Below, one piece after another: positions 15,974 through 43,969 of a stretch of 64,000 nucleotides of DNA (within the stretch, counting starts at the first letter, position 1; every line of letters starts with the position of its first letter). The notes under the pieces were generated by a model. It had not been told where the DNA came from and did not search any database. It saw nothing but the letters and a program-made list of their open reading frames with translations. The stretch comes from Nitrospira sp. (GTDB lineage: Bacteria; Nitrospirota; Nitrospiria; Nitrospirales; Nitrospiraceae). Where the stretch lies: contig JAFEBL010000001.1 in the NCBI GenBank assembly GCA_018242665.1, positions 62,001 to 126,000 of the forward strand, given 5' to 3'. A program made the translations under genes and the position numbers.

Positions 15974-16078
15974 AAAAAAAGACGCCCTCTTCCCCGCAGG
16001 GGGGAGGAGGACGTCTTTGTCCCATTCGGCGAGGTGATGATCCTCGTCTGTTATTGATGCGCCGACTTCACCGTCGGC
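15974..16078 (-). promoter_or_regulatory. Second ANTAR-type attenuator in the cynS leader
   Basis: On the minus strand, a hairpin GGGAC/GUCCU with loop AAAGAC lies at 16023-16008. Its 3' arm overlaps the 5' arm of a strong terminator (15974-16015: stem with GACGUCCUC/GAGGGCGUC and seven Us). The loop keeps A1 and G4. Upstream, a perfect 6-bp stem with a six-base loop GGUGAA (16078-16061) occupies the position of the first hairpin but has G at position 1. A further small hairpin lies at 16030-16046. The two-hairpin layout before a terminator is that of ANTAR-controlled leaders, with a less canonical first hairpin. It lies 55 bases before the cynS start codon, so readthrough is needed to express cynS and nirA. 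Confidence 0.75.
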
Positions 16079-16084
16079 AGAAAC

Positions 16085-16176
16085 AAAAAAGGCGTCCGCC
16101 ACTCTTGAAAGAATGACGGACGCCATTGTCCGTGTACGGTATGTGGTGCAGGTTCGAAATCAGGCGTCGTTGCCTG
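16085..16176 (-). promoter_or_regulatory. First ANTAR-type dual hairpin and terminator in the cynS leader
   Basis: On the minus strand, hairpin 1 (16176-16161) is CAGGC-AACGAC-GCCUG with a perfect stem. After 27 bases, hairpin 2 (16133-16116) is ACGGAC-AAUGGC-GUCCGU, also perfect. Both loops have six bases with A at position 1 and G at position 4, the determinants recognised by ANTAR proteins. The 3' part of hairpin 2 forms the 5' arm of the terminator at 16124-16085 (GGCGUCCGUC pairing with GGCGGACGCC, then six Us), so hairpin 2 and terminator are mutually exclusive. A promoter lies just upstream, with transcription predicted to begin about 13 bases before hairpin 1. Confidence 0.85.
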
Positions 16177-16195
16177 CTCTCACCCACGCACTGCA

Positions 16196-16224
16196 TGTAT
16201 ATCATCGCCTTCCGGATTCGTCAA
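16196..16224 (-). promoter_or_regulatory. Sigma-70-type promoter of cynS-nirA
   Basis: On the minus strand: -35 TTGACG (16224-16219), 17-bp spacer, -10 TATACA (16201-16196). It lies just after the glnA stop and directly before the first ANTAR hairpin. The -35 element forms one end of a perfect 18-bp palindrome (16219-16236, arm CGTCAAGCG), which could be a repressor or activator site. Confidence 0.7.
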
Positions 16225-16249: not shown

Positions 16250-17659
16250 CTACACGTCGTAATACAGGAAAAACTCATACGGATGTGGCCGCAACCGCAT
16301 GGTATCGACTTCCTTGGTGCGCTTGTAGCCGATCCAGGCCTCGATGAGGTCCTCACTGAACACCCCGCCCTTGAGGAGGAACTGATGATCCTTCTCCAGG
16401 TGGTTCAGCGCCTCGTCAAGGCTGCCCGGCATGGTGCGGATCTTGGCCGCTTCCTTGGCCTCGAGATCGTACAGATCCTTCTCCGCCGGCTCTCCCGGAT
16501 TGATCTTATTTTCGATTCCGTCTAGGCCAGCCATCAGCATCGCGGCGAATGCCAGATACGGGTTGGCGGCCGGGTCCGGGAACCGCACTTCGATCCGCTT
16601 GGCCTTCGGGCTCGGGGAATACATCGGAATACGAATGCCAGCCGACCGATTACGGCTCGAATAGGCCAACAAGACCGGCGCTTCAAAGCCCGGCGTCAGC
16701 CGCTTGTACGAGTTGGTCGATGGGTTGGTAAACGCGGCCAGTGCCGGCGCATGCTTCAGAATACCGCCGATGTAGTGCAGACACATCTGCGACACGCCGG
16801 CATATTCCTTCCCGGCAAACAGCGGCTTGCCGTCCTTCCAGATGCTCTGGTGAGTGTGCATGCCCGATCCGTTGTCGCCGAAGATCGGCTTGGGCATGAA
16901 GGTCACCGTCTTCCCGTGCCGACGCGCGACATTCTTGACGATGTATTTGAACATCATCATTTTGTCCGCGGTCCGCAACAGGCTGTCGAAGCGAATGTCG
17001 ATTTCCGCCTGGCCTGCCGTCGCCACTTCATGGTGATGCTTTTCAGTGGCAATGCCGGCTTTTTCCATCTCCAAAATCATTTCCGTACGGATATCCTGCT
17101 GTGTATCCGTCGGTGCCACCGGGAAGTAGCCTTCCTTATGGCGGATCTTGCCGCCCAGATTGACGCCTTCCTGGCCCATGTTCCACACGCCCTCGTCGGA
17201 ATCGATGTGGTAGTAGGCGCTGTGGTTCGTCTGGTCGTAGCGAGCATGGTCGAAAATAAAGAACTCGGCTTCCGGTCCCCAGTAGGAGGTGTCACCGATC
17301 TTGGTGCTCTGAAGATATTTTTCCGCCTTCTGGGCGATGTATCGCGGATCGCGATCGTACATTTCACGCGTGATCGGATCGACCACATTGCCGATCAAGC
17401 TCAGTGTGGGCACGGAGCAAAAGGGATCCATGCAGGCGGTTGCCGGGTCCGGCACGAGCAGCATGTCGCTGTTGTTGATCGCTCTCCATCCACGAATCGA
17501 CGAACCATCGAGTCCGGATCCGTCCTTGAACAGGCCTTCGGTCAGCTCACTGACAGGAATCGTAAAATGCTGCCAGGTGCCGATCAGGTCGACGAACTTC
17601 ATGTCCACGACCTGGACCTTATTCTTCTTTGCAAAATCTAACACCTCACGAACGTTCAT
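16250..17659 (-). CDS. glnA: Glutamine synthetase type I
   Basis: The 469-residue enzyme makes glutamine from glutamate, ammonium and ATP. It has normal GSI length and hallmarks: DGSSIRGW and [10 protein letters not shown] (metal-binding Glu) in the first third, the [10 protein letters not shown] ammonium/glutamate-site motif, [22 protein letters not shown] (ATP/glutamate site) and [28 protein letters not shown] near residue 400 holds the Tyr adenylylated in the beta subtype, so control by GlnE is possible. The ATG follows AAAGGAGGAGGGG. It is the last gene of the amtB-PII-glnD-glnA block, 48 bp after glnD, and no terminator with U-run separates it from the cynS promoter. Confidence 0.97.
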
Positions 17660-17707
17660 CCCCTCCTCCTTTCAACCACCGATAAAAAACACCTTCATTC
17701 GCTGTCC

Positions 17708-20392
17708 CTACGCCGCATGCGCCCCAAGAAACACTTCAATTTCATTGAGGATCGATACCCGGATCGTCTCCAGGCGGCCAACCTCTTCCACTTTCTTCCC
17801 GTCCATACTCGTCACATAAAACACGTCGGCCACCTGATCCAGCCTCGTGGAAATCCTGGACGCATGCACCGACAACCCCAATTGAAAAATGGCGTTCGTG
17901 ATAATGTACAGCAATCCCTGCCGATCATCCGCAAAAACATCAAGAATGGTAAAGCGGTCGGACGTTTCGTTGTCGATGCGCACTTCCGCCGGCTGCCGGT
18001 GCGCAGGCAATGATCGGCCCAGGCTCAATCGGGATCCACGTCGCATGACCGCATCGATCGCCTGCCGACCGGTCAAGACCTCCGAAATCGTGGCCCCGAT
18101 CGACTCCCGCCGATCGATCGGAGGTTCCCCCTGATAGTCCAGATCGGCAACCTGGAAGGTATCCACGACCACGCCGTCTTTTCGTGTGACGATTTGTGCA
18201 TCGAGAATCTGCAGCCCGCCCGCCGCCATGACTCCGGCGATTTTGGAGAACAAGCCCGGGATCACATCGTTATGCGCGATGACGGCATACTCACATGTGC
18301 CCAGCGGCGCGTTAAATTCCGTCTCGACGACGACGCCACTCGGTTGCAGCCGGCGAATCGCGCCCAGATGGGCCGCAATGCGCCGAGGACTCGTGCCGTA
18401 CGCATACCGCAGGGGGAACTGCTCGAGTTCCGCGCAAATCCACCCCTTATCGTTCGGCAGATCGCGCACCTCCGGCGCCTGCGCGATCACGTCATTCGCG
18501 ATGCGCTCCAACCGCCGCGGCTCATCCGCCGTCTCCCGCTCGCCGGATACTTCCTGCATAGCTCGCAGGTACAGTTCAACCAGCAACGATTCTTTCCATT
18601 TCGTGAGGACGTCCGGACCCACTGCAGCAATGTCCGCAGCCGTCAGGGCGAGGAGCTTCCGCAATACCTCCGGCGTCCCCACTTCGCGGGCGAACGGCAA
18701 CAACACTTTTTCATCATAGGGATCACGGCGAAACGCCGTGTGGGCCATGAGAAGATGGCGATGAACCAGCATGACCAACGTTCGTGACTCCCACTCATCG
18801 AACCCCAAGCGCGCGGCCGTTTCTTCCGCCAACCGCTTCCCGACCTCACTATGATCCTCCTCGTGCCCCTTCCCCAGGTCGTGAAGAAGGAGCGCCAAGT
18901 GCAGCAGATCTTTCCGCTTGATCTCCCGATAGACCTCTCCGAGAACCCCGGTATGATTGGCCAGAGTTTCGGCCTTGGCCACCGCAAGTAAGCTATGCTC
19001 GTCGACCGTATACTTGTGGTACTGATTGAATTGCATCAGGCCACGGACGCGTGAGAAAGCCGGCACGAGTTTCTCCAGCAGATGCGCCCGATGCATCGAC
19101 TCCAAGGTAGTGGCCGTGCCAGGGCCTGACAAAATCGACAGGAAGATGCGGCCGGTCTCCGGTGTATGAAACTGCTCGACGGATAAGGTTTCGGCATGCC
19201 GGTGAATGTCTTCCAGCAGGGACGGATCGATGTTCACCTTGCGCGACCGCGCGAGATCGAACAGGGTCAGCAAGAGGGCCGGTTTTCCCAACACCTGGGA
19301 GCGCGATTCGGCAGGAACCGTCAAGGCTTCGCCGTCGATGGCGAAATACTGATCGATCCGCTTGGCCGGCAACCAGCGCGAGACCCGCTGCCACAAGGTG
19401 CGGCGACGGCATCGCTCGACAAATCGCATCAACGCCGCATGCAGCCCCATCGTGTGCCGATAGTACTGCTGCATGAATTGTTCGACAGCCAGCAGATGTG
19501 GCCGGTCGGTGAACCCTAACTGTTTCGCCAGCCAGACCTGTTCATCAAACGTGAGAATCTCCTGTGCCATGCCGGCTCGAATGTGGAGGAAGGATCGGAC
19601 GCGCAGCAGAAACTCCCTGGCCTCTTTGAGCGAGCGATAGTCGGCCTGGGAGAGAATGCCGCGATCGGACAATTCCCGGATGGTGGGCGCATGGAAGCGG
19701 GCTGCGCCAATCCATTGCAGCAAATGCAAATCCCGCAATCCGCCTTGACTCTTTTTGACGTTCGGCTCCAGCAGGTACACCGTCTCCCCGAACTTTTGGT
19801 ACTCGCGGTGCCGTTCGGTGACCTTCTGTTCGAGATACCCGTCGAAGCCGCTCGAGACCACTTTGCGCACGTACCGCGCATGGAACTGCTGAAAGAGTTC
19901 GGGACTGCCTGCCAGAAACCGGGCTTCCATCATCGACGTGCGAACCGTCAGATCAGCCAAACCCAAATCGATACAGTCCTGAATGGTGCGCACGCTGTGC
20001 CCGACCTGAAATCCGATATCCCAGAGCGGATGCAGCACCTGCTTCACCAGCTCAGGGATCACCTTGGCCGCATCCTGGTGAAAGAGGAACATCAGATCGA
20101 TATCGGAGTGCGGCGCCAATTCCCGCCGGCCGTAGCCCCCGATCGCCACCAGACAGCAATGCTGGAATCCTGCCGTCGTGAGCGCCTCGCCGCCGGTCCG
20201 CGCCGCAGTCCGATATCGGCCGATGATCACGCCATCGACCAGATCGGTCGTGGCCGCAACCACCTCGTCGCCCGACGCACCGGCCAGTAACCGCTGCTGA
20301 ATCGCCTGGCGTTGTTCAGCCAGCAGTTGAGACACCGAAATGGCGGCCGCGTCCTGGACCATATGAGAACCCGCGTCCAACGCTTGCGACAT
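17708..20392 (-). CDS. glnD: PII uridylyltransferase / uridylyl-removing enzyme
   Basis: The 894-residue protein senses glutamine and modifies PII. The nucleotidyltransferase motif GGYGRRELAPHSDIDLMFL lies near residue 100 with both catalytic Asp. The HD hydrolase motif LALLLHDLGKGHEEDHSE lies mid-protein. Two ACT domains close the protein (VIAHNDVIPGLFSKIAGVMA and TILDVFADDRQGLLYIITNA). All domains needed for uridylylation and deuridylylation are intact. It starts two bases after the PII gene, so they are translationally linked, and glnA follows. Confidence 0.96.
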   Translation of the reverse strand: MSQALDAGSHMVQDAAAISVSQLLAEQRQAIQQRLLAGASGDEVVAATTDLVDGVIIGRYRTAARTGGEALTTAGFQHCCLVAIGGYGRRELAPHSDIDLMFLFHQDAAKVIPELVKQVLHPLWDIGFQVGHSVRTIQDCIDLGLADLTVRTSMMEARFLAGSPELFQQFHARYVRKVVSSGFDGYLEQKVTERHREYQKFGETVYLLEPNVKKSQGGLRDLHLLQWIGAARFHAPTIRELSDRGILSQADYRSLKEAREFLLRVRSFLHIRAGMAQEILTFDEQVWLAKQLGFTDRPHLLAVEQFMQQYYRHTMGLHAALMRFVERCRRRTLWQRVSRWLPAKRIDQYFAIDGEALTVPAESRSQVLGKPALLLTLFDLARSRKVNIDPSLLEDIHRHAETLSVEQFHTPETGRIFLSILSGPGTATTLESMHRAHLLEKLVPAFSRVRGLMQFNQYHKYTVDEHSLLAVAKAETLANHTGVLGEVYREIKRKDLLHLALLLHDLGKGHEEDHSEVGKRLAEETAARLGFDEWESRTLVMLVHRHLLMAHTAFRRDPYDEKVLLPFAREVGTPEVLRKLLALTAADIAAVGPDVLTKWKESLLVELYLRAMQEVSGERETADEPRRLERIANDVIAQAPEVRDLPNDKGWICAELEQFPLRYAYGTSPRRIAAHLGAIRRLQPSGVVVETEFNAPLGTCEYAVIAHNDVIPGLFSKIAGVMAAGGLQILDAQIVTRKDGVVVDTFQVADLDYQGEPPIDRRESIGATISEVLTGRQAIDAVMRRGSRLSLGRSLPAHRQPAEVRIDNETSDRFTILDVFADDRQGLLYIITNAIFQLGLSVHASRISTRLDQVADVFYVTSMDGKKVEEVGRLETIRVSILNEIEVFLGAHAA

Positions 20393-20394
20393 AC

Positions 20395-20754
<360 letters not shown>

Positions 20755-20838
20755 TCAGGTCTCGGCTGTCAGCGTTCAGCTAAAAAGACACACGCTCTAC
20801 GCATCATGTTGAAGGCTGACTGCCGATCGACTTCCTAC

Positions 20839-22167
20839 TCACGAATAGGCGCGTTCGTTATGTTGACTCAAATCGAGACCAGTCGCTTCCTCTTCGGGCG
20901 AGACCCGCAGTCCCGTCATCGCATCGACCAATTTGAGGATGGCAAAGGTACCGACCAGTGAGAAGACCGTCGTGACCACCACGACCAGGAGTTGGACGCC
21001 GAACAACCCGGGATTGCCAAAGAACAGCCCATCGGCGCCTCCGGAATTGACGACTTTGCTGGCGCAGAGCCCCGTCGCCAGCACTCCAATCACCCCCCCG
21101 ACTCCATGGATTCCCACGACGTCAAGCGAGTCATCATAGCCGAATCGCCCCTTCCAGACAATCGCCGCGTAGCAGGACATCCCCGCAACCAGGCCGATGA
21201 GGATAGCCGACAGGGGGCTGATATATCCCGCTGCAGGCGTGACCGTGGCCAGGCCGGCCACGGCGCCGCTGGCGAGGCCCAGGACCGTCGGTTTCCCGCG
21301 ATGCATCCATTCTGCGCCGCACCAGGAAATCGCTCCCATACAGGCGGCCGCATGGGACGCCAAAATGGCAGAGACCGCCACACCGTTCGCCCCGAGCGCG
21401 CTTCCCCCGTTGAATCCAAACCAGCCGAACCACAGAAATCCGGTCCCGAGCAGAGTCATCGGCAAATTGTGGGGGGCCATATAATCCGTGCCATACCCCC
21501 GCCGCTTGCCCAGCACAATCGCGCAGATCAATGCAGACGCGCCGGAGCTAATGTGGATGACCGCGCCGCCAGCAAAATCCAACGCGCCCAGCTGAGCGAG
21601 CCACCCGCCGCCCCAAATCCAATGGGCCAACGGCACATACACCAGCACCGACCACATGGCGGCAAACAGCACCACCGACGTGAACCGTTTGCGTTCGGCA
21701 AACGCGCCGGTGATCAGCGCCGGGGCAATGGCGGCAAACATCAACTGGAACAGCATAAAGGCCTGGTGCGGAATCGTCGGAGCATAGACCGCGTGCGGCT
21801 GGCTCCCCACTCCGCTCAGACCGATCCAATCCAGCCCTCCGATTACCCCGCCCTTGTCAGGCCCGAAGGCCAAACTATATCCGAACAGAATCCACAACAG
21901 GCTGACGACGCTCAGGATCATGATGCTTTGCATGATCGTCCCGAGCACATTTTTGGTACGCACAAGCCCGCCATAAAACAGCGCAAGCCCCGGCATCAGC
22001 ATGGCCAACACGAAGGCCGACGAGACCAGCACCCATGCCGTGTCCCCGCTGTCAACTTTGAGCGGCGCATTCTCCGCCCACGCCTGTTCCGCTCCGAATG
22101 CCACGATCAGGGTGAGTGCCCCTGCCAGGCCCACGATGAACGTTTTCCACTGTGCCGATGCCTTCAC
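20839..22167 (-). CDS. amtB: Ammonium transporter
   Basis: The 442-residue protein has a signal sequence (AEQAWAENAP boundary) and about 11 membrane helices. The twin pore histidines occur in GGAVIHISSGASAL and VVGIHGVGGVIGVLATG. FWFGWFGFNGGSALGANG is the Amt signature. It is of the Amt/MEP kind rather than Rh. Upstream of it sits an outer-membrane beta-barrel gene and downstream the PII gene, about 105 bp away, with which it forms the usual amtB-glnK pair. It imports ammonium for GlnA at low external concentration. Confidence 0.96.
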   Translation of the reverse strand: MKASAQWKTFIVGLAGALTLIVAFGAEQAWAENAPLKVDSGDTAWVLVSSAFVLAMLMPGLALFYGGLVRTKNVLGTIMQSIMILSVVSLLWILFGYSLAFGPDKGGVIGGLDWIGLSGVGSQPHAVYAPTIPHQAFMLFQLMFAAIAPALITGAFAERKRFTSVVLFAAMWSVLVYVPLAHWIWGGGWLAQLGALDFAGGAVIHISSGASALICAIVLGKRRGYGTDYMAPHNLPMTLLGTGFLWFGWFGFNGGSALGANGVAVSAILASHAAACMGAISWCGAEWMHRGKPTVLGLASGAVAGLATVTPAAGYISPLSAILIGLVAGMSCYAAIVWKGRFGYDDSLDVVGIHGVGGVIGVLATGLCASKVVNSGGADGLFFGNPGLFGVQLLVVVVTTVFSLVGTFAILKLVDAMTGLRVSPEEEATGLDLSQHNERAYS

Positions 22168-22187
22168 GCTGTCCTCCTTCGGCTACG

Positions 22188-22240
22188 CTGCCTGCCAAGA
22201 GACCTCCTCCTTCACCGTGCTCAGGAGGAGGCCCAGGCAG
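22188..22240 (-). repeat. Long hairpin between the outer-membrane protein gene and amtB
   Basis: Inverted arms CTGCCTG (22188-22194) and CAGGCAG (22234-22240) enclose a second paired block, CCTCCTCC with GGAGGAGG. There is no following U-run, so it is probably not a terminator. It might set the relative mRNA level of the two cistrons by stalling exonucleases, and its inner arm on the mRNA resembles a ribosome-binding site sequestered in a stem. Function is inference. Confidence 0.5.
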
Positions 22241-22244
22241 AAGC

Positions 22245-23123
22245 TTAAAACGTCTTCGTGAACTTCAGCTTATAAAAATCCTGATTGTCTGTCAGATCTT
22301 TTCCGACCGTGAACCGGAAGGCCATGTTGCCCGGCAACTTCATTTCGACATACGGACCGATCCAGCGATAGTAGTCTTGAGCGGCGCCCGGCGCGCTGCT
22401 ATCACGCGTCGTCAGCAGATGTTCGTAATGGGCACCGAGAGACCACATGCTGTTCATGCGCACACCGGCGCTGACCCAGTAGTGGAGAAAATCCCAGGTG
22501 CCCCGGCCACCACCTTGAATCGGGCCCAAGCAATTGGTGCCGCCCGGATTGCCGCAGCCGATCGCTCCGCCGCCGCCGCTGCCGCCTTCGCTGCGGATCG
22601 CCTTGTAGTAGCCCAAATAGAATTCGCCTTCGAAACGATTATCAATGTAGTTCGCAATGATGTTCGGCACCGCGCCTTCAAAGGCCGTGGTGCGCTCGTT
22701 CACGCTGCCGCCGCCGTTCGGAAAGAAGCCGCCACGGGACGACAACAGGCTGCCATGCACGAAGCCGATCATCGGCGTGACGGACAAGCGCTTTTCCAGG
22801 AACGTGAAATTCAGACCCACGTCCGTTTCAAGCCATGGCGCGTTGTCATGCACCCCGACGCCGCTGATCATGGTCCAATAGGTGAAGTTAAAGGCGAGTG
22901 CGATGTTATCGGTCAGCCCATAGGTGCCGTAGATGGATGGATTGAATCCGAAGAAGCTGTCGGCCTGCATCGCCATGGTCACCGACACGGGGTGTTTGGT
23001 GGTGTCCATCAAGTCGTCTGTCGTCGCGGCCTGCGCCTCGACCAGCGCGCCTCCCCCACCGCCTGCCATCAATGCCACCCCCAACACCCATGCCCGTGCC
23101 TTCCGTCCAACCAGCATATCCAT
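22245..23123 (-). CDS. Predicted outer-membrane beta-barrel protein ahead of amtB
   Basis: The 292-residue protein has a signal peptide ending near VEAQAATTDD. The mature part consists of alternating amphipathic strands with aromatic girdles (ALAFNFTYWTMI, GEFYLGYYKAI, SAGVRMNSMWSLGAHYEHLL) and ends in Phe (KFTKTF), the usual BAM recognition residue. A Gly-rich loop with two Cys (IGCGNPGGTNCLG) is probably extracellular. About 280 residues suggest a 10-14-stranded barrel. I recognise no named family. It lies directly upstream of amtB and behind an ANTAR-type leader, so ammonium or small-molecule passage across the outer membrane is a reasonable guess. Confidence 0.75.
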   Translation of the reverse strand: MDMLVGRKARAWVLGVALMAGGGGGALVEAQAATTDDLMDTTKHPVSVTMAMQADSFFGFNPSIYGTYGLTDNIALAFNFTYWTMISGVGVHDNAPWLETDVGLNFTFLEKRLSVTPMIGFVHGSLLSSRGGFFPNGGGSVNERTTAFEGAVPNIIANYIDNRFEGEFYLGYYKAIRSEGGSGGGGAIGCGNPGGTNCLGPIQGGGRGTWDFLHYWVSAGVRMNSMWSLGAHYEHLLTTRDSSAPGAAQDYYRWIGPYVEMKLPGNMAFRFTVGKDLTDNQDFYKLKFTKTF

Positions 23124-23201
23124 GACGCCTCCAAAGAGAGAAGAAGTAAATGTGCCCTGCTCCTAAACCGTCATACCCGACGATCTGGGGGCCCCGTCTC
23201 T

Positions 23202-23244
23202 CTGGCGCCATTGCCAGTGTTGCTGACCGACGTCGTTGTCGGTC
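23202..23244 (-). promoter_or_regulatory. ANTAR-type dual hairpin in the leader of the OMP-amtB-PII-glnD-glnA block
   Basis: On the minus strand, hairpin 1 (23244-23225) is GACCGAC-AACGAC-GUCGGUC, a perfect 7-bp stem. Seven bases later, hairpin 2 (23217-23202) is CUGGC-AAUGGC-GCCAG, a perfect 5-bp stem. Both six-base loops have A1 and G4. Hairpin 1 begins 19 bases after the nadE stop and there is no obvious promoter in between. Unlike the other leaders, no clear terminator with U-run follows; a GC-rich GGGGCCCCC segment does. It may act on read-through from nadE, or through an alternative structure or translation initiation. Loops and stems are seen; function is inferred. Confidence 0.75.
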
Positions 23245-25204: not shown

Positions 25205-25207
25205 GAT

Positions 25208-25309
25208 AAAAAAAAAGTCCTCGGACCCACCCGATGCTCGGTGGACCAGAGGACGTCGTTGTCCTGCGCCATCTCTATAAGGGATAGCCTCCTGAGACTC
25301 CGTTGTCCC
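25208..25309 (-). promoter_or_regulatory. ANTAR-type dual hairpin and terminator in the nadE leader
   Basis: On the minus strand, hairpin 1 (25309-25294) is GGGAC-AACGGA-GUCUC (one G-U pair). After 28 bases, hairpin 2 (25265-25250) is AGGAC-AACGAC-GUCCU. Both loops are six bases with A1 and G4. The 3' arm of hairpin 2 (GUCCU) is also the start of the terminator GUCCUC...GAGGAC (25254-25217), which contains an inner stem GGUCCACC/GGUGGGUCC and is followed by nine Us. Hairpin 2 and the terminator cannot form together. This is the classic ANTAR antitermination layout and precedes nadE by about 180 bases. Confidence 0.87.
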
Positions 25310-25415: not shown

Positions 25416-25423
25416 CCCGCCCC

Positions 25424-35909: not shown

Positions 35910-35937
35910 GCTTTCTGCCCGATCCCTCCTCTCTTCG

Positions 35938-37500
35938 TTAGCCTTCGGCGTGACGGCCCTTGACCGCAAATAACCCTGATGGCCGCCGCTGCAGGAACAA
36001 AATCACCAACACCAGGATCAACACCTTGCCATACACCGCGCCGAGGCTCGGCTCCATTAGCTTATTCAGCCCGCCGATCCCGAGCGAGGCGATAATGGTT
36101 CCCGCAAGTTTGCCGACCCCGCCCGTCACGACCACCATGAAGGAGTCCACGATGTAGTTCTGCCCAAGACCCGGTTCGACATTGCCCACCAGCGTCAAGG
36201 CCCACCCGGCGATGCCGGCCAGGCCGGAGCCAAAGGCGAAGGTATAGGCGTCCACTTTTCTCGTCGGAATTCCCAAGCAGGCGCTCATGCTGCGATTCTG
36301 TGTGACGGCCCGCACCCGAAGTCCGATGCTGGAACGAAACAGCAGGACATAAATGCCGATGACACTGAGAATGGAGAGGGCAATGATGAACAGCCGGTTG
36401 AAGGGCAGGAACACGCCCACCAACACTTGAGTGCCGCCGTTCAGCCACGACGGCGCGGTAATGGCTGTCAGATCCCCAAAGTACATGCGCGCCCCTTGGA
36501 TCAATATCAAGCTGACGCCCCAGGTGGCCAACATCGTTTCCAGCGGGCGGCCGTAGAGGAAACGAATGACGGTGGCTTCCAGGATCAACCCGAACAGGGC
36601 CGAGGCCAGAAAGGCAGCGGGAAGCGCAGCCAAATAATAGGAATCGAACCAGCTCTCAGGCACATAGAGTTTGAAACATTCCTGCACGACGAATGTCGCG
36701 TAGGCGCCGATCATCATGAGCTCGCCATGTGCCATGTTGATGACGCCCATCAACCCGAACACAATCGCGAGCCCCAGGGACATGATGAGGAGAATGGAAC
36801 TCAGACTGATGCCGCGGAACAGCGTCTCGATCGCGCTGGACCAGACGTTCCAGGATTCGATCCGTTCGATCGCGGCTGTGGCCGTCTGCGCGAGCGCTTT
36901 CTGCTCTGCGGTCGCCGACTCGTCGATTCCCGCTTGTACCAACGCTTGTAGCGCCGGCACGGCGTTCTGGCTGCGCATGTCGCCCAGCTTCGCGGCGGCC
37001 TGCTGCTGACCGGCTGGATTGTTGGAAGCCAGTTTCAATAGCAGCGCAGACTCTTCCATCGCATACCGCACCCAGCGATGCGATTCGTTGGCTGCGGCAG
37101 CCTGCAGCCAGGGAATGGCCGCAGGACGGCCGTTCGTGCCGAGATCCGTGGCGGCCGTGCGGCGTGTATCGGCATCCGGGCTGGCTAGATTCGCGCGATT
37201 GCGCCAGATATCGATCACCGGCTTAATCGCCATGCGCAGGCTGCGGTCCGCATCGGCCCGCAGTGCCTCCATTCGCGGCAACAGCGAGGCATCTCCCTGT
37301 TCGATCAACAGACGAACCGCCTGCTCCCGCGTCCCTTCCACCTCACTCGACACATCGGCCAACGCCTGCTCGACTTGAGGCGACGGAGACACATTCGCCT
37401 GCGCCTCCGCCGCCACACTCCCGATCGCGAACCACCCTAGACTGGCGGCAATCATCCCGATACCGATAAACAACTTCATGCGATGACGACTTTCATCCAT
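35938..37500 (-). CDS. urtB: Urea ABC transporter permease UrtB with periplasmic N-terminal extension
   Basis: The protein has 520 residues, with ATG 37479 as alternative start. A signal-like segment is followed by about 190 residues of alpha-helical HEAT-like repeats (VEGTREQAVRLLIEQGDASLLPRMEAL and two further units), which would be periplasmic. The LivH-type permease comes after residue ~220 (GLAIVFGLMGVINMAHGELMMIGAY; RAVTQNRSMSACLGIPTRKVDAYTFAFGSGLAGIAGWAL). The extension is known in many UrtB proteins and probably contacts UrtA. Confidence 0.94.
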   Translation of the reverse strand: MDESRHRMKLFIGIGMIAASLGWFAIGSVAAEAQANVSPSPQVEQALADVSSEVEGTREQAVRLLIEQGDASLLPRMEALRADADRSLRMAIKPVIDIWRNRANLASPDADTRRTAATDLGTNGRPAAIPWLQAAAANESHRWVRYAMEESALLLKLASNNPAGQQQAAAKLGDMRSQNAVPALQALVQAGIDESATAEQKALAQTATAAIERIESWNVWSSAIETLFRGISLSSILLIMSLGLAIVFGLMGVINMAHGELMMIGAYATFVVQECFKLYVPESWFDSYYLAALPAAFLASALFGLILEATVIRFLYGRPLETMLATWGVSLILIQGARMYFGDLTAITAPSWLNGGTQVLVGVFLPFNRLFIIALSILSVIGIYVLLFRSSIGLRVRAVTQNRSMSACLGIPTRKVDAYTFAFGSGLAGIAGWALTLVGNVEPGLGQNYIVDSFMVVVTGGVGKLAGTIIASLGIGGLNKLMEPSLGAVYGKVLILVLVILFLQRRPSGLFAVKGRHAEG

Positions 37501-37523
37501 GCTCCCTTCCGACGCCTCCCCAC

Positions 37524-38891
37524 TCAGGCCTTCTTATACGTGCCCTGGTGGTTCACCCAGTCACACCCTTTATCGGGATTCGTGTATTCACTCCAGGGCT
37601 CAGGCTTGACCAATCCCTTGGACCGCCAGACGACTTTGAACTGGCCGTCTTTCAGGATCTCGCCGATCAACACCGGCTTGTTCGTGTGGTGGTTGGCCTC
37701 ATCCATCATGATCTCTCCACCCGGCGCGAGGAACTTCTGTCCATAGACCGCCTTGCGCACGGCGTTCACTTCCGTGGTCCCCGCTTTTTCGACGGCTTGT
37801 TTCCAGACGTGGACACCGAAATAGGCCGCTTCGATCGGATCGTCCGTGACGCGTTTTTCGCCGTCCGGAAGATTGTTCTTTTTGCAGTACGCTTTGAAAT
37901 TCGCCACGAACTGTTTGTTCTGCGGCGTGTCGACGCTCTGGTAGTAATTCCACGCCGCCAGGTGGCCGACCAGCGCAGTCTTGTCCATTCCACGCAATTC
38001 GTCTTCCGCCACGCTAAACGCCATGATCGGCGCGTCTTCCGCACGCAGACCTTGATTGGCAAATTCTTTGTAGAACGGCACGTTACTGTCGCCGTTGATC
38101 GTGCTGATGACACAGGCACCTCCACCCGCGGCGAACTTCTTAATCTTGCCGACAATGGTCTGATAGTCCTGATGATGAAACGGCGTGTATTCTTCCATGA
38201 TGTTGGCAGCCGGTACTTTTTTCGCCAGCAACATGGCGCGCAAAATCTTGTTCGTCGTCTTGGGATAGACGTAGTCGGTTCCGAGGAGATAGAACTTTTT
38301 GAAGCTGCCGCCTTCTTTGCTCATCAGGTATTCAACCGCCGGCACCGCCTGCTGGTTGACGGCTGCCCCGGTGTAGAAAACGTTCTTCGAACATTCTTCG
38401 CCCTCGTACTGGACGGGATAGAAGAGCAAGCCGTTATGCTCCTCAAAGATCGGCAAGACCGATTTCCGGCTGACTGAGGTCCAGCAGCCGAACACTACCG
38501 CCACTTTTTCCTGCACCAACAGTTGCTTGGCCTTTTCCGCAAACAGGTCCCAGTTCGAGGCGGGATCGACGACCACCAGTTTTAACTGACGCCCCAATAC
38601 TCCGCCCTTCGCGTTGATTTCCTGGACGGCCATCGAGACCACATCCTTCAACGACACTTCACTGATGGCCATCGTGCCACTCAGCGAATGCAACACGCCG
38701 ACCTTGATGGGCTCATTGTCCGCTCCCAAAGACAAGGCCCACGTGCCGAGGTTGCCGAGGACTGCCGCTATGCCAATACCGGCAGCCGTACGCGAGCTTT
38801 GCACCAGGAAGTCGCGCCGCGAGGGAAGTGGTTCGTTGGGGGCCATGGAAGTCGTTATTTCGTCGCCATGTGGCTTCTGTGGATTCATCAT
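37524..38891 (-). CDS. urtA: Urea ABC transporter substrate-binding protein UrtA
   Basis: The 455-residue type I periplasmic binding protein has a Tat-like signal (SRRDFLVQSSRTAAG followed by a hydrophobic run). The binding core shows IKVGVLHSLSGTMAISEVSLKD, FGCWTSVSRKSVLPIFEE and LFYPVQYEGEECSKNVFYTGA, typical of UrtA/FmdD (urea or short amides). It lies between the porin and urtB. The Tat signal implies folding before export. Confidence 0.94.
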   Translation of the reverse strand: MMNPQKPHGDEITTSMAPNEPLPSRRDFLVQSSRTAAGIGIAAVLGNLGTWALSLGADNEPIKVGVLHSLSGTMAISEVSLKDVVSMAVQEINAKGGVLGRQLKLVVVDPASNWDLFAEKAKQLLVQEKVAVVFGCWTSVSRKSVLPIFEEHNGLLFYPVQYEGEECSKNVFYTGAAVNQQAVPAVEYLMSKEGGSFKKFYLLGTDYVYPKTTNKILRAMLLAKKVPAANIMEEYTPFHHQDYQTIVGKIKKFAAGGGACVISTINGDSNVPFYKEFANQGLRAEDAPIMAFSVAEDELRGMDKTALVGHLAAWNYYQSVDTPQNKQFVANFKAYCKKNNLPDGEKRVTDDPIEAAYFGVHVWKQAVEKAGTTEVNAVRKAVYGQKFLAPGGEIMMDEANHHTNKPVLIGEILKDGQFKVVWRSKGLVKPEPWSEYTNPDKGCDWVNHQGTYKKA

Positions 38892-38918
38892 TCGGCTCCT
38901 TTCGCCGTCAGGTTTGGG

Positions 38919-40289
38919 CTAGAAGTTGTACCAAGTCGACAGCATGAAATTGTCCCCGGCGAAATGCTCCCTCGTGGACCATTCAGTCATGAGGTGATTC
39001 CATTCCAGGGATGCGTACAAGTCGCCCCAAATGTGGCGAACGGCCGTCAGGTAGGTCCGGTGATTCAACACATATTGCGTATCTGCGCCGGCACTCGTGC
39101 CGTTGAGATCGGAGTTCAACGGATTGTCGAACCCATACCCGGCAATGAGCGTCAGTTGTCGGTCGTAGGCGTAATCCAATTCACCCCAGCCGACCACCGT
39201 CCGGATGGCTTTGCCTGTCCCCAGGTTGCGCTCCTGGCCGAATCGGAAGAACTCCACGCCCAGCGCTTGTCCATAGGCGATCTCTCCGGTGAACTTCAGC
39301 CTGTTGGTGATGGGCACGGCCAGTTCCGCCCCGACGAGGTAGGAATTGATGTCCTGACCGGAAGGAATCCCGCCCGCCGTCGGCGCGGATCGGTAGTGAC
39401 GGAAGGCGGCGTTGAACGCCACCATGAAGCCCGCCCGATCCCCCGTCCCTGTGTAGGCGAAACGGGTCCCGACGTACGGCATTTGCACCGGATCGTTGAA
39501 GGCGTTTTCCGAGCAGGCAAATCCGCTGCTGCCGCAACTGCCCGGCGCAGCCGCCGCCGCGCCCGCGCCTTGGAAGGTCCGCCGTTGTGTCTGCGGCTGA
39601 ATGGCCGACAGCCCGCGCTCGAATCGCATCACGGTCAGCAGGCCGTTGACGTTCTCGGTGAACTGATGCTTCACGGTGAGCTGCGGAAGGCGCTGCCACA
39701 AGTTACCGTTGTAGCCCATGATGGAGAAGTCGATCAGGTTTGGATGGGAAGACATGATCGGTGTCCAATCCATACCTGCGGTGATGGTCGTGCGGCTGTT
39801 GTTCGGCGAGTATTTGACGTTCGCCAACCGCAAGCGGGGGGAGATGTTTCCCGCGTTGTCGGTTTGGCTGTAGAAGTCGGCTTCCACGACACCCGTGAGG
39901 GAATGGGTGCCGTCGGTGCGATCCGCGCGTAACCCGAATACGCTATAACGTGGATTGAGGGTCGAGGAGGCGTTGCTGCTCTTTCCGGCTGCCGTTGCAT
40001 AGCCGTTGAATTGTCCCGGATCGAGCGGATTGGTATTTCGATTGCTATAAATGCCGTCTAATTCGATACGGCCGTACGGAACGATGCTCCCCTTGCCCTC
40101 GCCGGCAAAGGTGGGCGTCACACAGCCGCCGCAAATCACTGCCGGTGGAGTTTCCACTTCCCGCGATAGTCGCCCGGCTCCTGCCGCCTCTCCGGCACTC
40201 TGCTCTTCTGCCCCCGCGGGCGTCGTGATGGCTACAGCCATCAGCACGCTCGCGTAGAGCGCAATGTTTCTGAGTCTCCCTTTCTTCAT
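38919..40289 (-). CDS. Outer-membrane porin of the urea-uptake locus
   Basis: The protein has 456 residues from ATG 40289 (MKKGRLRN), with AGGAGG ten bases upstream; the longer frame reaches into the leader. The signal peptide ends near PAGAEEQS. The rest is a beta-barrel with repeated YGRIELDGIYSN, GVVEADFYSQTDN and YDRQLTLIAGYGF strands, and it ends in Phe (STWYNF). Its position ahead of urtABCDE suggests passage of urea or short amides through the outer membrane, as for FmdC-type porins. A promoter and ANTAR-type attenuator precede it, so the whole transporter operon may be controlled there. Confidence 0.85.
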   Translation of the reverse strand: MKKGRLRNIALYASVLMAVAITTPAGAEEQSAGEAAGAGRLSREVETPPAVICGGCVTPTFAGEGKGSIVPYGRIELDGIYSNRNTNPLDPGQFNGYATAAGKSSNASSTLNPRYSVFGLRADRTDGTHSLTGVVEADFYSQTDNAGNISPRLRLANVKYSPNNSRTTITAGMDWTPIMSSHPNLIDFSIMGYNGNLWQRLPQLTVKHQFTENVNGLLTVMRFERGLSAIQPQTQRRTFQGAGAAAAAPGSCGSSGFACSENAFNDPVQMPYVGTRFAYTGTGDRAGFMVAFNAAFRHYRSAPTAGGIPSGQDINSYLVGAELAVPITNRLKFTGEIAYGQALGVEFFRFGQERNLGTGKAIRTVVGWGELDYAYDRQLTLIAGYGFDNPLNSDLNGTSAGADTQYVLNHRTYLTAVRHIWGDLYASLEWNHLMTEWSTREHFAGDNFMLSTWYNF

Positions 40290-40353
40290 CCTGAAAGCCC
40301 TCCTGGTTCGGAACGATGTGGCTGTCACCGGACCGGATGGGCTTGCAGGCAAT

Positions 40354-40448
40354 AAAAAACGCCCTTCCGGTCCAACCGTTGGACCAAAAGGACGTCATTG
40401 TCCTCTGCCTATGTGTTGTCTGCGAGAATCCAGGACGTCGTTGTCCTG
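40354..40448 (-). promoter_or_regulatory. ANTAR-type dual hairpin and terminator in the porin-urtABCDE leader
   Basis: On the minus strand, hairpin 1 (40448-40431) is CAGGAC-AACGAC-GUCCUG. After 26 bases, hairpin 2 (40404-40389) is AGGAC-AAUGAC-GUCCU. Both are perfect stems with six-base loops holding A1 and G4, and the two stem-loops are almost identical in sequence. The 3' arm of hairpin 2 feeds into the terminator ACGUCCUU...AAGGGCGU (40395-40359, inner stem GGUCCAAC/GUUGGACC) followed by a U-run. The porin start codon is 65 bases further on. This is the clearest dual-hairpin leader of the window. Confidence 0.88.
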
Positions 40449-40470
40449 CGTTCACCGCATACGGGAGAGG

Positions 40471-40500
40471 TCTATACGCCTCCTTGCCTCATCTTGTCAA
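40471..40500 (-). promoter_or_regulatory. Sigma-70-type promoter of porin-urtABCDE
   Basis: On the minus strand: -35 TTGACA (40500-40495), 18-bp spacer, -10 TATAGA (40476-40471), matching the spacing of the nadE promoter. Predicted transcription starts near 40464, about 15 bases before ANTAR hairpin 1. Confidence 0.75.
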
Positions 40501-40543
40501 GCAGCCTTCCTCAGGCGTTTTGTCCCTTCATGAATGTATCCTG

Positions 40544-40552
40544 TGGTACACT
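40544..40552 (+). promoter_or_regulatory. Extended -10 element of the plus-strand lipoprotein gene
   Basis: TGGTACACT has the extended -10 form TGnTAnnnT and lies 21 bases before the ATG at 40574. The same arrangement is seen for the paralogue near 25407. No convincing -35 was found. Confidence 0.45.
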
Positions 40553-40573
40553 ACGCGCCTTGCTGGCCGCTGT

Positions 40574-41521
40574 ATGATGAACACCTTGTCCATGAGCCAT
40601 CGCTACACATCCGCCGTAAGTCTGTTGCTCTGTGTATTGGTCTCGGCTTGCGCGAGCAACCCTCAACGTGATGTGACGATTCAGCAATCGGCCAGAGGCG
40701 GGGTCTATCTCGAGCGGATCCCTACACGTCAATTTCAGGCCACACACCCTATCAAACTGGCCCCGGAACTCATTGCCAAAAGCTTACAAGGCGTCCAGAT
40801 CGAGGAAGGCAAGGGCCTCTTGCAGTCGTTACGCGCACAGCAAAACCGGACGCTCTCCGTCTTTTCCCAGGACGACATTGCTCTGCTCGCCCCTGCCATC
40901 GCGGATGGATTGAGTCAAGCAGCGCCGGATCAGCAGGTGGGGTTTCGTATCGTGCAGAGAGGAGACTTCGAGGGACGTGATAGAACCGGTGCCGGGGTTG
41001 GATCAGGAACCACTCCGCAACGGAATCAGGAGAGCACGACGAGCGGCAAGCTGTTTGTCTATGGGCGTTCGTTGTACCTGACGATCCACCAGTTCCGCGA
41101 CTACACGGAGTCGCCCGACACCATCAACATGCCGAATCGCCGGCTGCCCGAGCCAACTGGATTAAGAAACCGCACGGTCCTGTTTCTGCCGGAATCGGCA
41201 CTCCGACCCGACATCTATGCGCCGCCCTTTGCCGCGGAAGACGGGCTGACTACACTGGTCATCGACTATGACGCACTGGCAAAAACGCCTACTGCGACAC
41301 TGCCAGCGGTACTGTCCACGCCCGAGCCGGTTCCTGCCGTCGCACCGGCCGCCATACCAGCCGTCACGCCGCCACTGCAGGACGATCTCCAGCAGATTAA
41401 AAGCCAGATGAAACAGAAGGAACGAGAGGTAGAGGAGCTGCGAAAGGAATTGGAGGATATCAAACGTCAGCTGGGCAACCAATCGACCAAAGGCGGTCAG
41501 GCCCCCTCACGCAAGCCGTAA
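40574..41521 (+). CDS. Lipoprotein with C-terminal coiled coil, divergent from porin-urtABCDE
   Basis: The protein has 315 residues from ATG 40574 (ATG 40577 also possible). The signal AVSLLLCVLVSAC gives a lipobox. The body shares with the 25424 protein the pattern R-FQATHPIKLAPELIAKSLQGV, LAPAIADGLSQAAPDQQVGF and a segment SGKLFVYGRSLYLTIHQFRD. It ends in a long charged coiled coil (QIKSQMKQKEREVEELRKEL) and a basic tail. Family and function are not recognised. Both paralogues are transcribed away from an ANTAR-type leader. Confidence 0.85.
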   Translation: MMNTLSMSHRYTSAVSLLLCVLVSACASNPQRDVTIQQSARGGVYLERIPTRQFQATHPIKLAPELIAKSLQGVQIEEGKGLLQSLRAQQNRTLSVFSQDDIALLAPAIADGLSQAAPDQQVGFRIVQRGDFEGRDRTGAGVGSGTTPQRNQESTTSGKLFVYGRSLYLTIHQFRDYTESPDTINMPNRRLPEPTGLRNRTVLFLPESALRPDIYAPPFAAEDGLTTLVIDYDALAKTPTATLPAVLSTPEPVPAVAPAAIPAVTPPLQDDLQQIKSQMKQKEREVEELRKELEDIKRQLGNQSTKGGQAPSRKP

Positions 41522-41547
41522 CCACCCACAACCGTAGATCTGTCCGG

Positions 41548-42807
41548 TCATCCGCGGTTTTTATCGGCTCGGTCTTCGATCTCACCCGCCAACAAAATCG
41601 CTTCGGCAATCTCGCGCATAGACTTGCGCAGATCCATGCTCTGTCGTTGAATCAACTTGAACGCATCTTCTTCCGACAGACGTTTCGACCGCATGAGGTA
41701 GCCCTTGGCCCGGTCGAGTAACTTGCGAACCTGCAAGGCCTCCTGCATTTCGAACGACTTTTCCAGCAGCGTCGTGTGCTCGATGGATATGGCTGCCTGA
41801 TTGGCGATGGCCTGCATCAACTTCACCTCTTCAGCCGTGAAGGTATGGGGCTTGGAGGTATAGGTATTGATGACACCGATGGCTTTTTCACGCACCAGCA
41901 TGGGCACGCAGAGGAGCGAACACAGCCCTTCTTTTGCAGCCATGTCCGGATACATGTAGGACCCTTCTTTGGTGACATCCGGCACGATGATCGGCCGGCG
42001 GTCTTGCACGGCTCGCCCGCTGATGCTCTGGCCCACCTTCACATTTGGCTTCCGCCGGTATTCTTCGCTCAGACTTTGCGTAGCGGCAATGCGCAGCTCA
42101 CCCGTCGTCTGCTCCAGCAGGATGATGGAGCAGATCTTCGATCCCATCATCTGAGCCGTCATGGTCACAATGAGTTGCAGCACGTCTTCAATCAATCGAT
42201 TGGAGGAGAGAGTCTCGGACACTTGCGACAAGGTATCGAGCTGGAGCGCCTTCCGCGTCATCTGATCATAGAGGCGGGCATTCTCAATGGCTCCGCCGAC
42301 TTGCGTCGCAATGGTCGACAGCAGGGCCAGCTCATCAGGGCGGTACCGCCGCGACCGTTTGTGCTGCACGTTGATGACGCCGACGACCTCCTGCTTGGTC
42401 GTGATGGGCACGGAGACAAACGCCTGATAGCGGTCTTCCGGCAGGTTATGAAAAAATTTGAACCGAGAATCATCGCTGGCGCTGTTTGGAATCACCACAC
42501 GAGTCCGCTCCCGGGCAACCCAGCCGGTGATACCTTCGCCCATTCCGATCGTGATTCGGCCGATGAGTTTGGGATGGGGATTTTTCGAGGCCCGTAAAAT
42601 CAGCTCGTCTCGTTTGTCGGACAGCAGGTACAGCAGGCAGGCATCGGCCTTCGTCGCTTCCACGACGACGTCGACAATATGGCGGAGCACGGCTTCTAAA
42701 TCGAGGGTGCTGCTGATCGATTCGCTAATGCGATGCAGCACATCAACTTCCCGCGTCTTTTCCCGTAGCGCCTGTTCCAGTTGAGGGACGGTTCGTTTTG
42801 GTGGCAT
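41548..42807 (-). CDS. GAF-GAF-ANTAR antiterminator protein
   Basis: The protein has 419 residues from ATG 42807, with AGGAG six bases upstream; the longer frame overlaps aroB and is not used. Residues ~5-25 are a coiled-coil lead. GAF domain 1 lies about 27-165 (SISSTLDLEAVLRHIVDVVVEATKADACLLYLL; GEGITGWVARERTRVVIPN). GAF domain 2 lies about 185-340 (LSSNRLIEDVLQLIVTMTAQMM; QSISGRAVQDRRPIIVPDV). The ANTAR domain lies at about 354-407: VRKLLDRAKGYLMRSKRLS followed by EEDAFKLIQRQSMDLRKSM and REIAEAILL, the full three-helix signature with AKGYLM. ANTAR domains bind paired hexaloop hairpins and prevent termination (AmiR, NasR, EutV). The GAF ligand is unknown. It is the best candidate here to act on the hairpin leaders at cynS, nadE, the amt block and urt. 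Confidence 0.9.
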   Translation of the reverse strand: MPPKRTVPQLEQALREKTREVDVLHRISESISSTLDLEAVLRHIVDVVVEATKADACLLYLLSDKRDELILRASKNPHPKLIGRITIGMGEGITGWVARERTRVVIPNSASDDSRFKFFHNLPEDRYQAFVSVPITTKQEVVGVINVQHKRSRRYRPDELALLSTIATQVGGAIENARLYDQMTRKALQLDTLSQVSETLSSNRLIEDVLQLIVTMTAQMMGSKICSIILLEQTTGELRIAATQSLSEEYRRKPNVKVGQSISGRAVQDRRPIIVPDVTKEGSYMYPDMAAKEGLCSLLCVPMLVREKAIGVINTYTSKPHTFTAEEVKLMQAIANQAAISIEHTTLLEKSFEMQEALQVRKLLDRAKGYLMRSKRLSEEDAFKLIQRQSMDLRKSMREIAEAILLAGEIEDRADKNRG

Positions 42808-42814
42808 GACGCTC

Positions 42815-43969
42815 CTACCGCCTGCGCCCTGTGGCAATGGCGGCGCTCCGACGTGATTCACGGCGACGAATGGTCGTGAACCAGGCACGGGTCTCCGCCT
42901 TCGCAAGGGCAACCACCCGCACCGTGCCGAGTGAGTCGGGCACGACACAATAAATTGTTCCTGCGGACACCTTCTTATCCTGTTGCATCGCGTTCCACAA
43001 ATCAGGGAACGACACATCCGGCAATCGGGCAGGGAGGCCAGCAGCCTCCACCACGCGACGTACCCGATCCACCACCTCCTGGGTACAGTAGCCGAGATGC
43101 CGCGCCAGATCGGCCTCATACACCATACCAACCGCGACGGCCTCGCCGTGAATCAATCCCTTGTACCCTCCGAGCGATTCCAATGCATGCCCGATCGTAT
43201 GCCCGAAATTCAAAATACGCCGCCGATCGGCTTCGCACTCGTCTTCCGACACAACCTGTGCCTTGATTTCGCACGAGCGCTTGACGATGTGCGCCACCGC
43301 CTCGTCGTCCAGCTTCAAGATCCGATCAATGTGTTGCTCCACATATTCAAAAAATGGCAGATCCGCGATCACCCCATACTTAATGACTTCCGCGAGACCA
43401 GCAATCCATTCACGCGTGGGCAAGGTCCGCAGTATGGCCGGATCAATCAGCACGGCCTGCGGCTGGTTGAAGGCACCAATCAGATTCTTGCCTTTCGGAT
43501 GGTCCACGCCGGTTTTTCCACCGACGCTGGAGTCAACCTGCGCCACAAGACTCGTCGGCACCTGCACAAACGGAATTCCTCGCTGATAGATCGCCGCCGC
43601 AAATCCTGTGAGATCACCGATCACGCCGCCTCCCAAGGCCAGCAGCGTCGAACTGCGTTCAAAGCGGGCGTCCACCAGGGTATCCATCACCTTCGCAATG
43701 GAACGAAGCGTTTTCGTTCGTTCGCCGGGAGGCAGAATCATGGGCACGACCGTGAACCCAGCCGTCTTCAACAGGCGCATCACCGACTTCAAGTAATGAC
43801 GCGCGAGATTCCGATCGGTGATCACCCCGACTTTGCCTGTGCGACGGAGCCGAGTGAGTTCGGCGCCGAGATCCTTCAGTAGCCCGCGCCGGATCCGAAT
43901 GTCGTAACTCCGCGCACCCAGCGCGACGTGGATAGTCTCCTGGAACGAATTGGTCTTACTGTTGGCCAT
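42815..43969 (-). CDS. aroB: 3-Dehydroquinate synthase
   Basis: The 384-residue enzyme of the shikimate pathway shows the NAD-binding GGGVIGDLTGFAAAIYQRGI, VPTSLVAQVDSSVGGKTGVDHP, AGLAEVIKYGVI and metal-binding FGHTIGHALES and HGEAVAVGM motifs. The C-terminus carries about 20 extra Arg-rich residues. It lies seven bases ahead of the ANTAR gene, so they are probably co-transcribed; the functional link is unclear. Confidence 0.95.
   Translation of the reverse strand: MANSKTNSFQETIHVALGARSYDIRIRRGLLKDLGAELTRLRRTGKVGVITDRNLARHYLKSVMRLLKTAGFTVVPMILPPGERTKTLRSIAKVMDTLVDARFERSSTLLALGGGVIGDLTGFAAAIYQRGIPFVQVPTSLVAQVDSSVGGKTGVDHPKGKNLIGAFNQPQAVLIDPAILRTLPTREWIAGLAEVIKYGVIADLPFFEYVEQHIDRILKLDDEAVAHIVKRSCEIKAQVVSEDECEADRRRILNFGHTIGHALESLGGYKGLIHGEAVAVGMVYEADLARHLGYCTQEVVDRVRRVVEAAGLPARLPDVSFPDLWNAMQQDKKVSAGTIYCVVPDSLGTVRVVALAKAETRAWFTTIRRRESRRSAAIATGRRR

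Follow-up and report, generated by a model that had tools for sequence, protein, structure and literature searches.

We describe a candidate antitermination regulon in 64,000 nucleotides of DNA (the window) from Nitrospira sp. (assembly GCA_018242665.1, contig JAFEBL010000001.1, positions 62,001 to 126,000). Four leaders, ahead of the cyn genes, nadE, an outer-membrane protein (OMP)-amtB block and a porin-urt block, carry paired hairpins with six-base loops (hexaloops), the first and second hairpins being termed P1 and P2. Judged from sequence, these pairs are very probably bound by the single ANTAR protein of the genome, which would thereby switch on genes for nitrogen acquisition. Comparison supports this assignment because the leaders and the ANTAR gene go together across the family. 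The original prediction had one regulator releasing terminators ahead of urea, cyanate, nitrite, NAD and ammonium genes; the comparison favours the common regulator, but the OMP-amtB part is probably translational and does not involve terminator release.

Hexaloop leaders and the ANTAR protein of the window

Nine hexaloop hairpins with invariant A1, A2 and G4 are present on the minus strand of the window, as originally proposed: the four P1-P2 leaders and an extra third hairpin in the cyn leader. The overlap of P2 with an intrinsic terminator is likewise found in the three leaders for which it had been claimed (cyn, nadE and urt), and the gene for a GAF-GAF-ANTAR protein is where it was expected. 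The cyn promoter, the second cyn terminator and the urt promoter and terminator listed below were read from the sequence itself.

16196-16224 (-), cyn promoter-like element TTGACG-17-TATACA, 9/12 match
16161-16176 (-), cyn P1, loop AACGAC at 16171-16166
16116-16133 (-), cyn P2, loop AATGGC at 16127-16122; 3' arm overlaps terminator 1
16091-16124 (-), cyn terminator 1, stem-loop with downstream T-tract; fold -27.8 kcal/mol
16008-16023 (-), cyn third hexaloop hairpin, loop AAAGAC at 16018-16013, 109 bases past the P2 loop
15974-16015 (-), cyn terminator 2, T7 tail; overlaps the third hairpin
25326-25355 (-), nadE promoter-like element TTGACA-18-TATACC
25294-25309 (-), nadE P1, loop AACGGA at 25304-25299
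25250-25265 (-), nadE P2, loop AACGAC at 25260-25255
25208-25254 (-), nadE leader terminator, T9 tail; the 3' arm of P2 serves as its 5' arm; fold -23.7 kcal/mol
40471-40500 (-), urt promoter-like element TTGACA-18-TATAGA
40431-40448 (-), urt P1, loop AACGAC at 40442-40437
40387-40406 (-), urt P2, loop AATGAC at 40399-40394
40354-40395 (-), urt leader terminator and T-tract, overlapping P2
23225-23244 (-), OMP P1, loop AACGAC at 23237-23232; 18 bases past the nadE stop codon
23202-23217 (-), OMP P2, loop AATGGC at 23212-23207
41548-42807 (-), GAF-GAF-ANTAR protein, 419 amino acids; start 7 bases past the aroB stop codon

Each leader had been thought to start at a promoter. This holds for the cyn, nadE and urt leaders, which are preceded by TTGAC[A/G]-17/18-TATA, but not for the OMP leader, where there is no 9/12 match. 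In the nadE terminator fold, 6/6 arm bases pair with the far arm. All eight paired hairpins have the features that define ANTAR targets, namely a hexaloop, A1, G4 and a stem of at least three pairs. A scan of the window for pairs of A1/G4 hexaloops with stems of at least five pairs and at most one G-U returned five pairs on the minus strand, which are the four leaders and one pair within the glnD coding region, and one pair on the plus strand; 30 dinucleotide-model shuffles of the minus strand gave two pairs in total (mean 0.07 per strand). No leader family was matched in an Rfam scan of the window at the gathering score. The lone Rfam match in the window was 5_ureB_sRNA (30268-30560, plus strand, 86.4 bits), antisense to ureC; we do not accept it as a true sRNA, since it probably reflects conserved urease coding similarity.

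The ANTAR domain is C-terminal (Pfam PF03861, 7.9e-19, 67.6 bits against a cut-off of 27.3) and accompanies two GAF domains. It was the one ANTAR protein found in the 4.06-Mb genome; its gene lies about 1.1 kb from the urt leader and within the same 27 kb as all four leaders. In a residue mapping made in this analysis, the residues of EutV that contact G4 (R142, K149 and E160) correspond to R361, K368 and E379, which are invariant in 80 proteins. K362, M391 and R394 are also identical to RNA contacts of EutV (K143, M172 and R175) and are invariant in the same set. The position of Y164 is occupied by F383, which is aromatic without being invariant in the 80 proteins, and that of K147 by R366, a conservative change. 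The best matches of the first GAF domain are a GAF structure without a name and the GAF structures of PtsP (EI-Ntr); the GAF domains of Nlh1 regulators are matched as well, and in NCBIfam NifA is matched below the cut-off. The EI-Ntr GAF domain is reported to bind glutamine (PMC4848567), and we therefore propose glutamine as the signal, which is a guess.

The predicted targets and their neighbours are arranged as follows.

15479-15919 (-), cynS, cyanase
15234-13627 (-), nirA, ferredoxin-nitrite reductase, after cynS
16250-23123 (-), OMP gene (DUF6733)-amtB-glnK-glnD-glnA; glnK is named from its P-II domain
23263-25032 (-), nadE, glutamine-dependent NAD synthase
33096-40289 (-), porin-like protein (likely ATG at 40289), then urtABCDE

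The urease genes are placed between nadE and the urt genes. The labels 'outer-membrane' and 'porin-like' are those of the original prediction, neither protein being named by Pfam or NCBIfam. Two plus-strand genes, at 25406-26338 and 40316-41521, face away from the nadE and the urt leader, respectively. Their products, which resemble one another (25% identity, E 6e-20), have no Pfam or NCBIfam match.

Conservation and loss of the leaders in related genomes

Exactly one ANTAR protein is encoded in each of 29 genomes of the genus, the genome of the window included. The covariance model R1, built from three leaders of the window, matches all 29, its source genome among them. A search of the source genome with the refined model R2 gave three matches with E below 1e-11, which are the cyn, nadE and urt leaders of the window; the OMP leader scored weakly (E 9.7). 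Nitrospira moscoviensis has three R2 matches (E 3.3e-8 to 2.8e-5) and Ca. N. defluvii has two (8.6e-12 and 2.1e-8); a strict pair scan of 21 kb around the N. moscoviensis ANTAR gene (L098) listed no pair. None of the 29 genomes has an NtrC protein above the NCBIfam cut-off of 558.6 bits (best 488.5), a cut-off that may be too strict for the phylum; lower-scoring matches to the NtrC model number 38-40 per genome, and the cut-off is exceeded in just one of 14 control genomes.

Orthologous leaders in relatives precede nadE, the OMP gene, porin-urt and nirC-cynS-nirA, and further leaders stand before amtB alone, nirB, an NMT1-type substrate-binding protein, a porin and sensor kinases. The A1/A2/G4 loops and the pairing are retained in these relatives, although in some distant ones A1 has become G1 or only P2 is present. 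In most genomes of the genus the cyn leader heads nirC-cynS-nirA and has two terminators. The nirC gene, which encodes a transporter of the formate/nitrite family and lies between leader and cynS in relatives (e.g. L036), is absent from the cyn operon of the window (15920-16180), so that here both terminators stand directly before cynS.

For the counts of pairing, terminators, promoters and third hexaloops, the leader sets comprised the window, L006-L075 and L093-L222 and may include a few chance pairs; L073, where the pair lies inside the ureB coding region, was excluded beforehand, and L076-L092 were covered by the scan for leaders in relatives. The 5' arm of the terminator is the 3' arm of P2 in 106 of 116 unique non-OMP leaders. 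Averaged over the 108 leaders, OMP-type or not, in which an overlap was scored, the terminator fold has about -25 kcal/mol. A promoter of at least 9/12 is present in 100 of 115 unique non-OMP upstream regions, compared with 2.3% of shuffles. A third hexaloop with a T-tract follows 106-111 bases on in 24 of 28 nirC/cyn leaders; among 108 other leaders, ten have a third hexaloop in that stretch, two of them with a T-tract.

Two further groups of leaders were noted. An ANTAR-type leader precedes proteins with similar N-termini in L101 (12385), L102 (12383), L104 (12418), L109 (5449), L117 (7825) and L119 (14805); the T-tract is mostly weak, and the one protein tested (L104) is a Cache-PAS histidine kinase. 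In L133 (12941-13100) a hexaloop pair with 25-base spacing stands before a sigma-54 activator, with a possible far terminator arm.

Pairing was counted in loop-anchored form over 117 unique P1-P2 cores. Such counts are circular for pairs 1-4, because the leaders were selected for stems of at least four pairs. Pairs 6 and 7 of P1 were not selected for and are formed in 71/117 and 69/117 cores, above all 500 shuffles (at most 52 and 54, respectively; the shuffles ignore relatedness). Pair 8 of P1 and pairs 6-8 of P2 show no excess over shuffles in the same cores. The loop-anchored counts replace those on the R1 alignment A3, which are weak because R1 and A3 force a shifted P1 on the cyn leaders; in A3 91.7% of cells pair, against 50.5% when the 3' partners are slid. 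As an unselected test, the regions upstream of nadE at 46 named ANTAR loci were scanned for all 16 loop classes; A1/G4 occurred 12 times and each of the other 15 classes 0-3 times.

A correlation between leaders and ANTAR gene, on which the original prediction had been made to depend, is clearly seen. Among 147 genomes of the family ANTAR is found in 99 and R2 matches in 96; 90 genomes have both, nine ANTAR only, six R2 only and 42 neither (Fisher p 1.9e-21, uncorrected for kinship). Five of the six R2-only genomes are at most 89% complete. This search used stricter filters, by which weak matches were lost. At the level of the phylum, 98 of 245 genomes have ANTAR and 40 have an R2 match, so R2 does not reach all ANTAR lineages.

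The distribution of amoA (PF02461), taken as the mark of comammox genomes and present in 46 of the 147 family genomes, shows where the system is missing. In genus g2 none of the 34 amoA-positive genomes has ANTAR and one has an R2 match (G185), while all nine ANTAR-positive genomes have an R2 match and none has amoA. In genus g4, 12/12 amoA-positive genomes have ANTAR and 11/12 an R2 match, and comammox metabolism as such therefore does not exclude the system. We take g2 and g4 to be comammox clades A and B. The nadE gene was found in all 30 g2 genomes examined (22 of the 34 ANTAR-negative amoA-positive genomes and eight of the nine ANTAR-positive ones). In none of the 22 ANTAR-negative genomes does a hairpin pair precede nadE; in 21 of them nadE directly follows aroB, 42-142 bases after the aroB match ends. 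G037, which is ANTAR-positive, has the arrangement aroB-ANTAR-nadE. At that very place, between aroB and nadE, the amoA-positive G185 has a 57-residue ANTAR match with 60% identity and an in-frame stop (L226, about 1178-1345). The one leader of G185 is an orphan, located after ureD on a different contig and not followed by nadE. In a tree of NadE (43 rows, midpoint root, one gene) two changes are needed, and G185 is sister to 16 other ANTAR-negative genomes.

Several observations weigh against ANTAR binding as the function of the leaders. The P1-P2 linker, measured by stems, is 24-28 bases in the cyn, nadE and urt leaders of the window (seven in the OMP leader), compared with 5-12 bases in the Enterococcus faecalis eut leaders, where 14 bases drastically cut induction (PMC3369931); linker length is not part of the definition of the ANTAR target family, which allows a variable linker. 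Of 11 RNA contacts in EutV six are identical, two conservative and three different here, R168, N173 and R177 being replaced by Q387, D392 and S396. The A3 covariation score is reached by 9/500 shuffles, which is a modest excess, and at 0.094 it is lower than the 0.200 obtained when the 3' partners are slid by +1. A strict pair before nadE is missing in 34 of the 46 named ANTAR loci. Among 24 of these 46 regions viewed by eye, six have the P2 loop GAUGAC (G1), several have P2 and a terminator without a clear P1 and a few have no leader. Nine ANTAR-positive family genomes lack a model match, and five of eight ANTAR-positive g2 genomes lack the pair before nadE, which is present in only three, so that target sets shift. 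The family counts are not independent, as the NadE tree needs just two losses.

If the leaders were ordinary attenuators or terminators independent of ANTAR, the hexaloops would be incidental. The terminators are certainly strong by themselves, with the mean fold given above, but this explanation is very unlikely: A1/G4 is singled out among 16 loop classes, P1 pairs although it is outside the terminator, and the leader matches are missing where ANTAR is missing, even though nadE is kept. We find it barely credible that the GGAC-AANGRC-GTCC palindromes serve a DNA-binding regulator as operators. The arms of P2 are nearly fixed (GGAC/GTCC) in most leaders; an operator would conserve its arms, yet those of P1 vary with compensation while loop bases 1, 2 and 4 are constant, though the leaders had been picked partly by their loops. 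P2 moreover sits in a terminator arm, and the repeats lie in the transcript because the promoters stand 5' of P1.

That the gene and the leaders are missing together from comammox genomes could also reflect shared ancestry or one regional deletion and not functional dependence. In those complete genomes that were viewed (e.g. G015, G020 and G205), no more than about 50 kb separates ANTAR from the leaders, and the tree requires just two losses. It is nevertheless an unlikely account. Targets such as nadE were kept and moved beside aroB without a leader, R2 has no match anywhere in 33/34 ANTAR-negative g2 genomes, and in G185 a regulator remnant coexists with one orphan leader surviving on another contig. 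Binding of the paired hexaloops by the ANTAR protein remains the reading that we prefer.

The OMP-amtB leader

The leader ahead of OMP-amtB probably acts on translation and not on termination, as far as its sequence can tell: terminator and promoter are both lacking, the nadE stop codon lies just ahead of the leader, and the loop and arm of its P2 can pair with the ribosome-binding site and AUG. In the window this leader contains neither a terminator nor a 9/12 promoter match, and its loop-to-loop distance is 25. The two segments concerned are the following.

23204-23211 (-), AUGGCGCC, loop and arm of P2; complement of the OMP start region
23122-23132 (-), GGAGG Shine-Dalgarno sequence through the AU of AUG, held by the alternative pairing

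The segment AUGGCGCC can pair with GGCGUCAU in the start region, with 8/8 pairs in 20 of 21 leaders, that of the window included, and the pairing is maintained through GGCGUC, GGCGCC and GGUGCC. A second helix of 5-7 pairs joins a purine run after P2 to the tract before the Shine-Dalgarno sequence. For the start-pairing set L087, L076 and L088 were added by hand and L133, which has no OMP gene behind it, was dropped; L087 was also added by hand to the fold set. The helix that hides the start is present in 15 of 21 minimum-energy folds (a crude count), and holding P1 and P2 costs 0 to 15 kcal/mol over the 21 folds.

A termination device, or a relic, in place of a translational switch is an improbable alternative that still deserves serious weight. 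In its favour, a hairpin with a T-tract overlapping P2 is flagged in two of 20 OMP-type leaders, and in L133 a distant GC-rich arm, followed by a T-rich tail, is available for pairing with the P2 arm. Also, with P1 and P2 held, 14 of 21 folds leave no Shine-Dalgarno base free, mostly via a weak local hairpin, which speaks against the translational switch. On the other side, 18/20 OMP-type leaders have no overlapping terminator and 20/20 no 9/12 promoter, and the start-region pairing survives the changes GGCGUC, GGCGCC and GGUGCC. We therefore continue to favour a translational switch for this leader.

Proposed mechanism and relation to known systems

In the nirC/cynS-nirA, nadE and porin-urt leaders, transcription would start just upstream and stop by default at the intrinsic terminator. 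The GAF domains may register a nitrogen-status signal, possibly glutamine, upon which an ANTAR dimer would bind P1 and P2. With ANTAR bound, P2 could not join the terminator and the polymerase would read on; the third hexaloop on the second terminator of the nirC/cyn leader may provide a second gate. OMP-amtB-glnK-glnD-glnA lies behind nadE in the same direction, and here P2 would compete with the helix that hides the ribosome-binding site and AUG, such that ANTAR would free translation. Where the ANTAR gene disappeared, the leaders probably no longer served a purpose and were lost as well.

The logic of the terminator leaders is that of known antiterminators. The eut leaders of E. faecalis and EutV/EutW likewise combine an ANTAR domain, two A1/G4 hexaloop hairpins and overlap of P2 with a terminator (PMC3369931, PMC8934654). 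EutV/EutW use a receiver domain and a partner kinase, whereas the Nitrospira protein has two GAF domains instead; its targets are for nitrogen acquisition, and one leader type is aimed at a ribosome-binding site. A single hexaloop has been argued to be the minimal ANTAR site (PMC8934654), and no GAF-domain ANTAR protein had been characterized by 2012 according to PMC3369931. NasR of Klebsiella and NasT also antiterminate nitrate/nitrite assimilation genes through ANTAR; the Nitrospira targets extend beyond these to urea, cyanate, ammonium and NAD synthesis. NasR senses nitrate via another sensor domain. Desulfotomaculum acetoxidans belongs to a different phylum from Nitrospira. The ANTAR regulon predicted there also covers several nitrogen operons, with at least 13 elements in six transcription units (Ramesh 2012, PMC3369931), but the section devoted to it draws no GAF-GAF-ANTAR link and makes no gene-loss comparison, unlike the present analysis.

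Action on translation as well as transcription has been held for actinobacterial ANTAR RNAs (PMC8164766) and for a start-site example in Figure S3 of Ramesh 2012 (PMC3369931), which also noted ANTAR sites over ribosome-binding sites. In contrast to these cases, the start-hiding pairing here uses the loop and arm of P2, shows compensating changes and occurs in a genome that also terminates. ANTAR regulons before genes for P-II, ammonium and urea transporters and nitrite reductase have been predicted in diverse bacteria (Ramesh 2012, PMC3369931). As to the original claim that no such regulon is known to have been described in Nitrospira, no title on ANTAR or antitermination in Nitrospira, nitrite oxidizers or comammox bacteria is among the matches listed, and the word Nitrospira is absent from the main text of Ramesh 2012 (PMC3369931), but the same kinds of genes had already been predicted as targets elsewhere.

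A wider and more tentative idea, which we consider possible but rather doubtful as a whole, is that one GAF-GAF-ANTAR protein is the master nitrogen-status regulator of nitrite-oxidizing Nitrospira. It would read glutamine directly and control, through one hexaloop code, both termination (urea, cyanate, nitrite and NAD) and translation (OMP-amtB-glnK-glnD-glnA), all within a single gene cluster. Ammonia as an energy source would have made the circuit useless, and one comammox group would have discarded it on one or perhaps two occasions; in one lineage a decayed regulator and a leftover leader would still record the process.

The nitrogen-source choice of nitrite oxidizers, which feed ammonia oxidizers through urea and cyanate cleavage, is central to nitrification. 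The leaders offer for this choice a concrete predicted regulator and its targets, also in the cultured N. moscoviensis and Ca. N. defluvii. They further provide an example in which a single ANTAR protein is predicted to act on termination and also on translation, and the contrast between nitrite oxidizers and comammox bacteria amounts to a natural experiment in gene loss.

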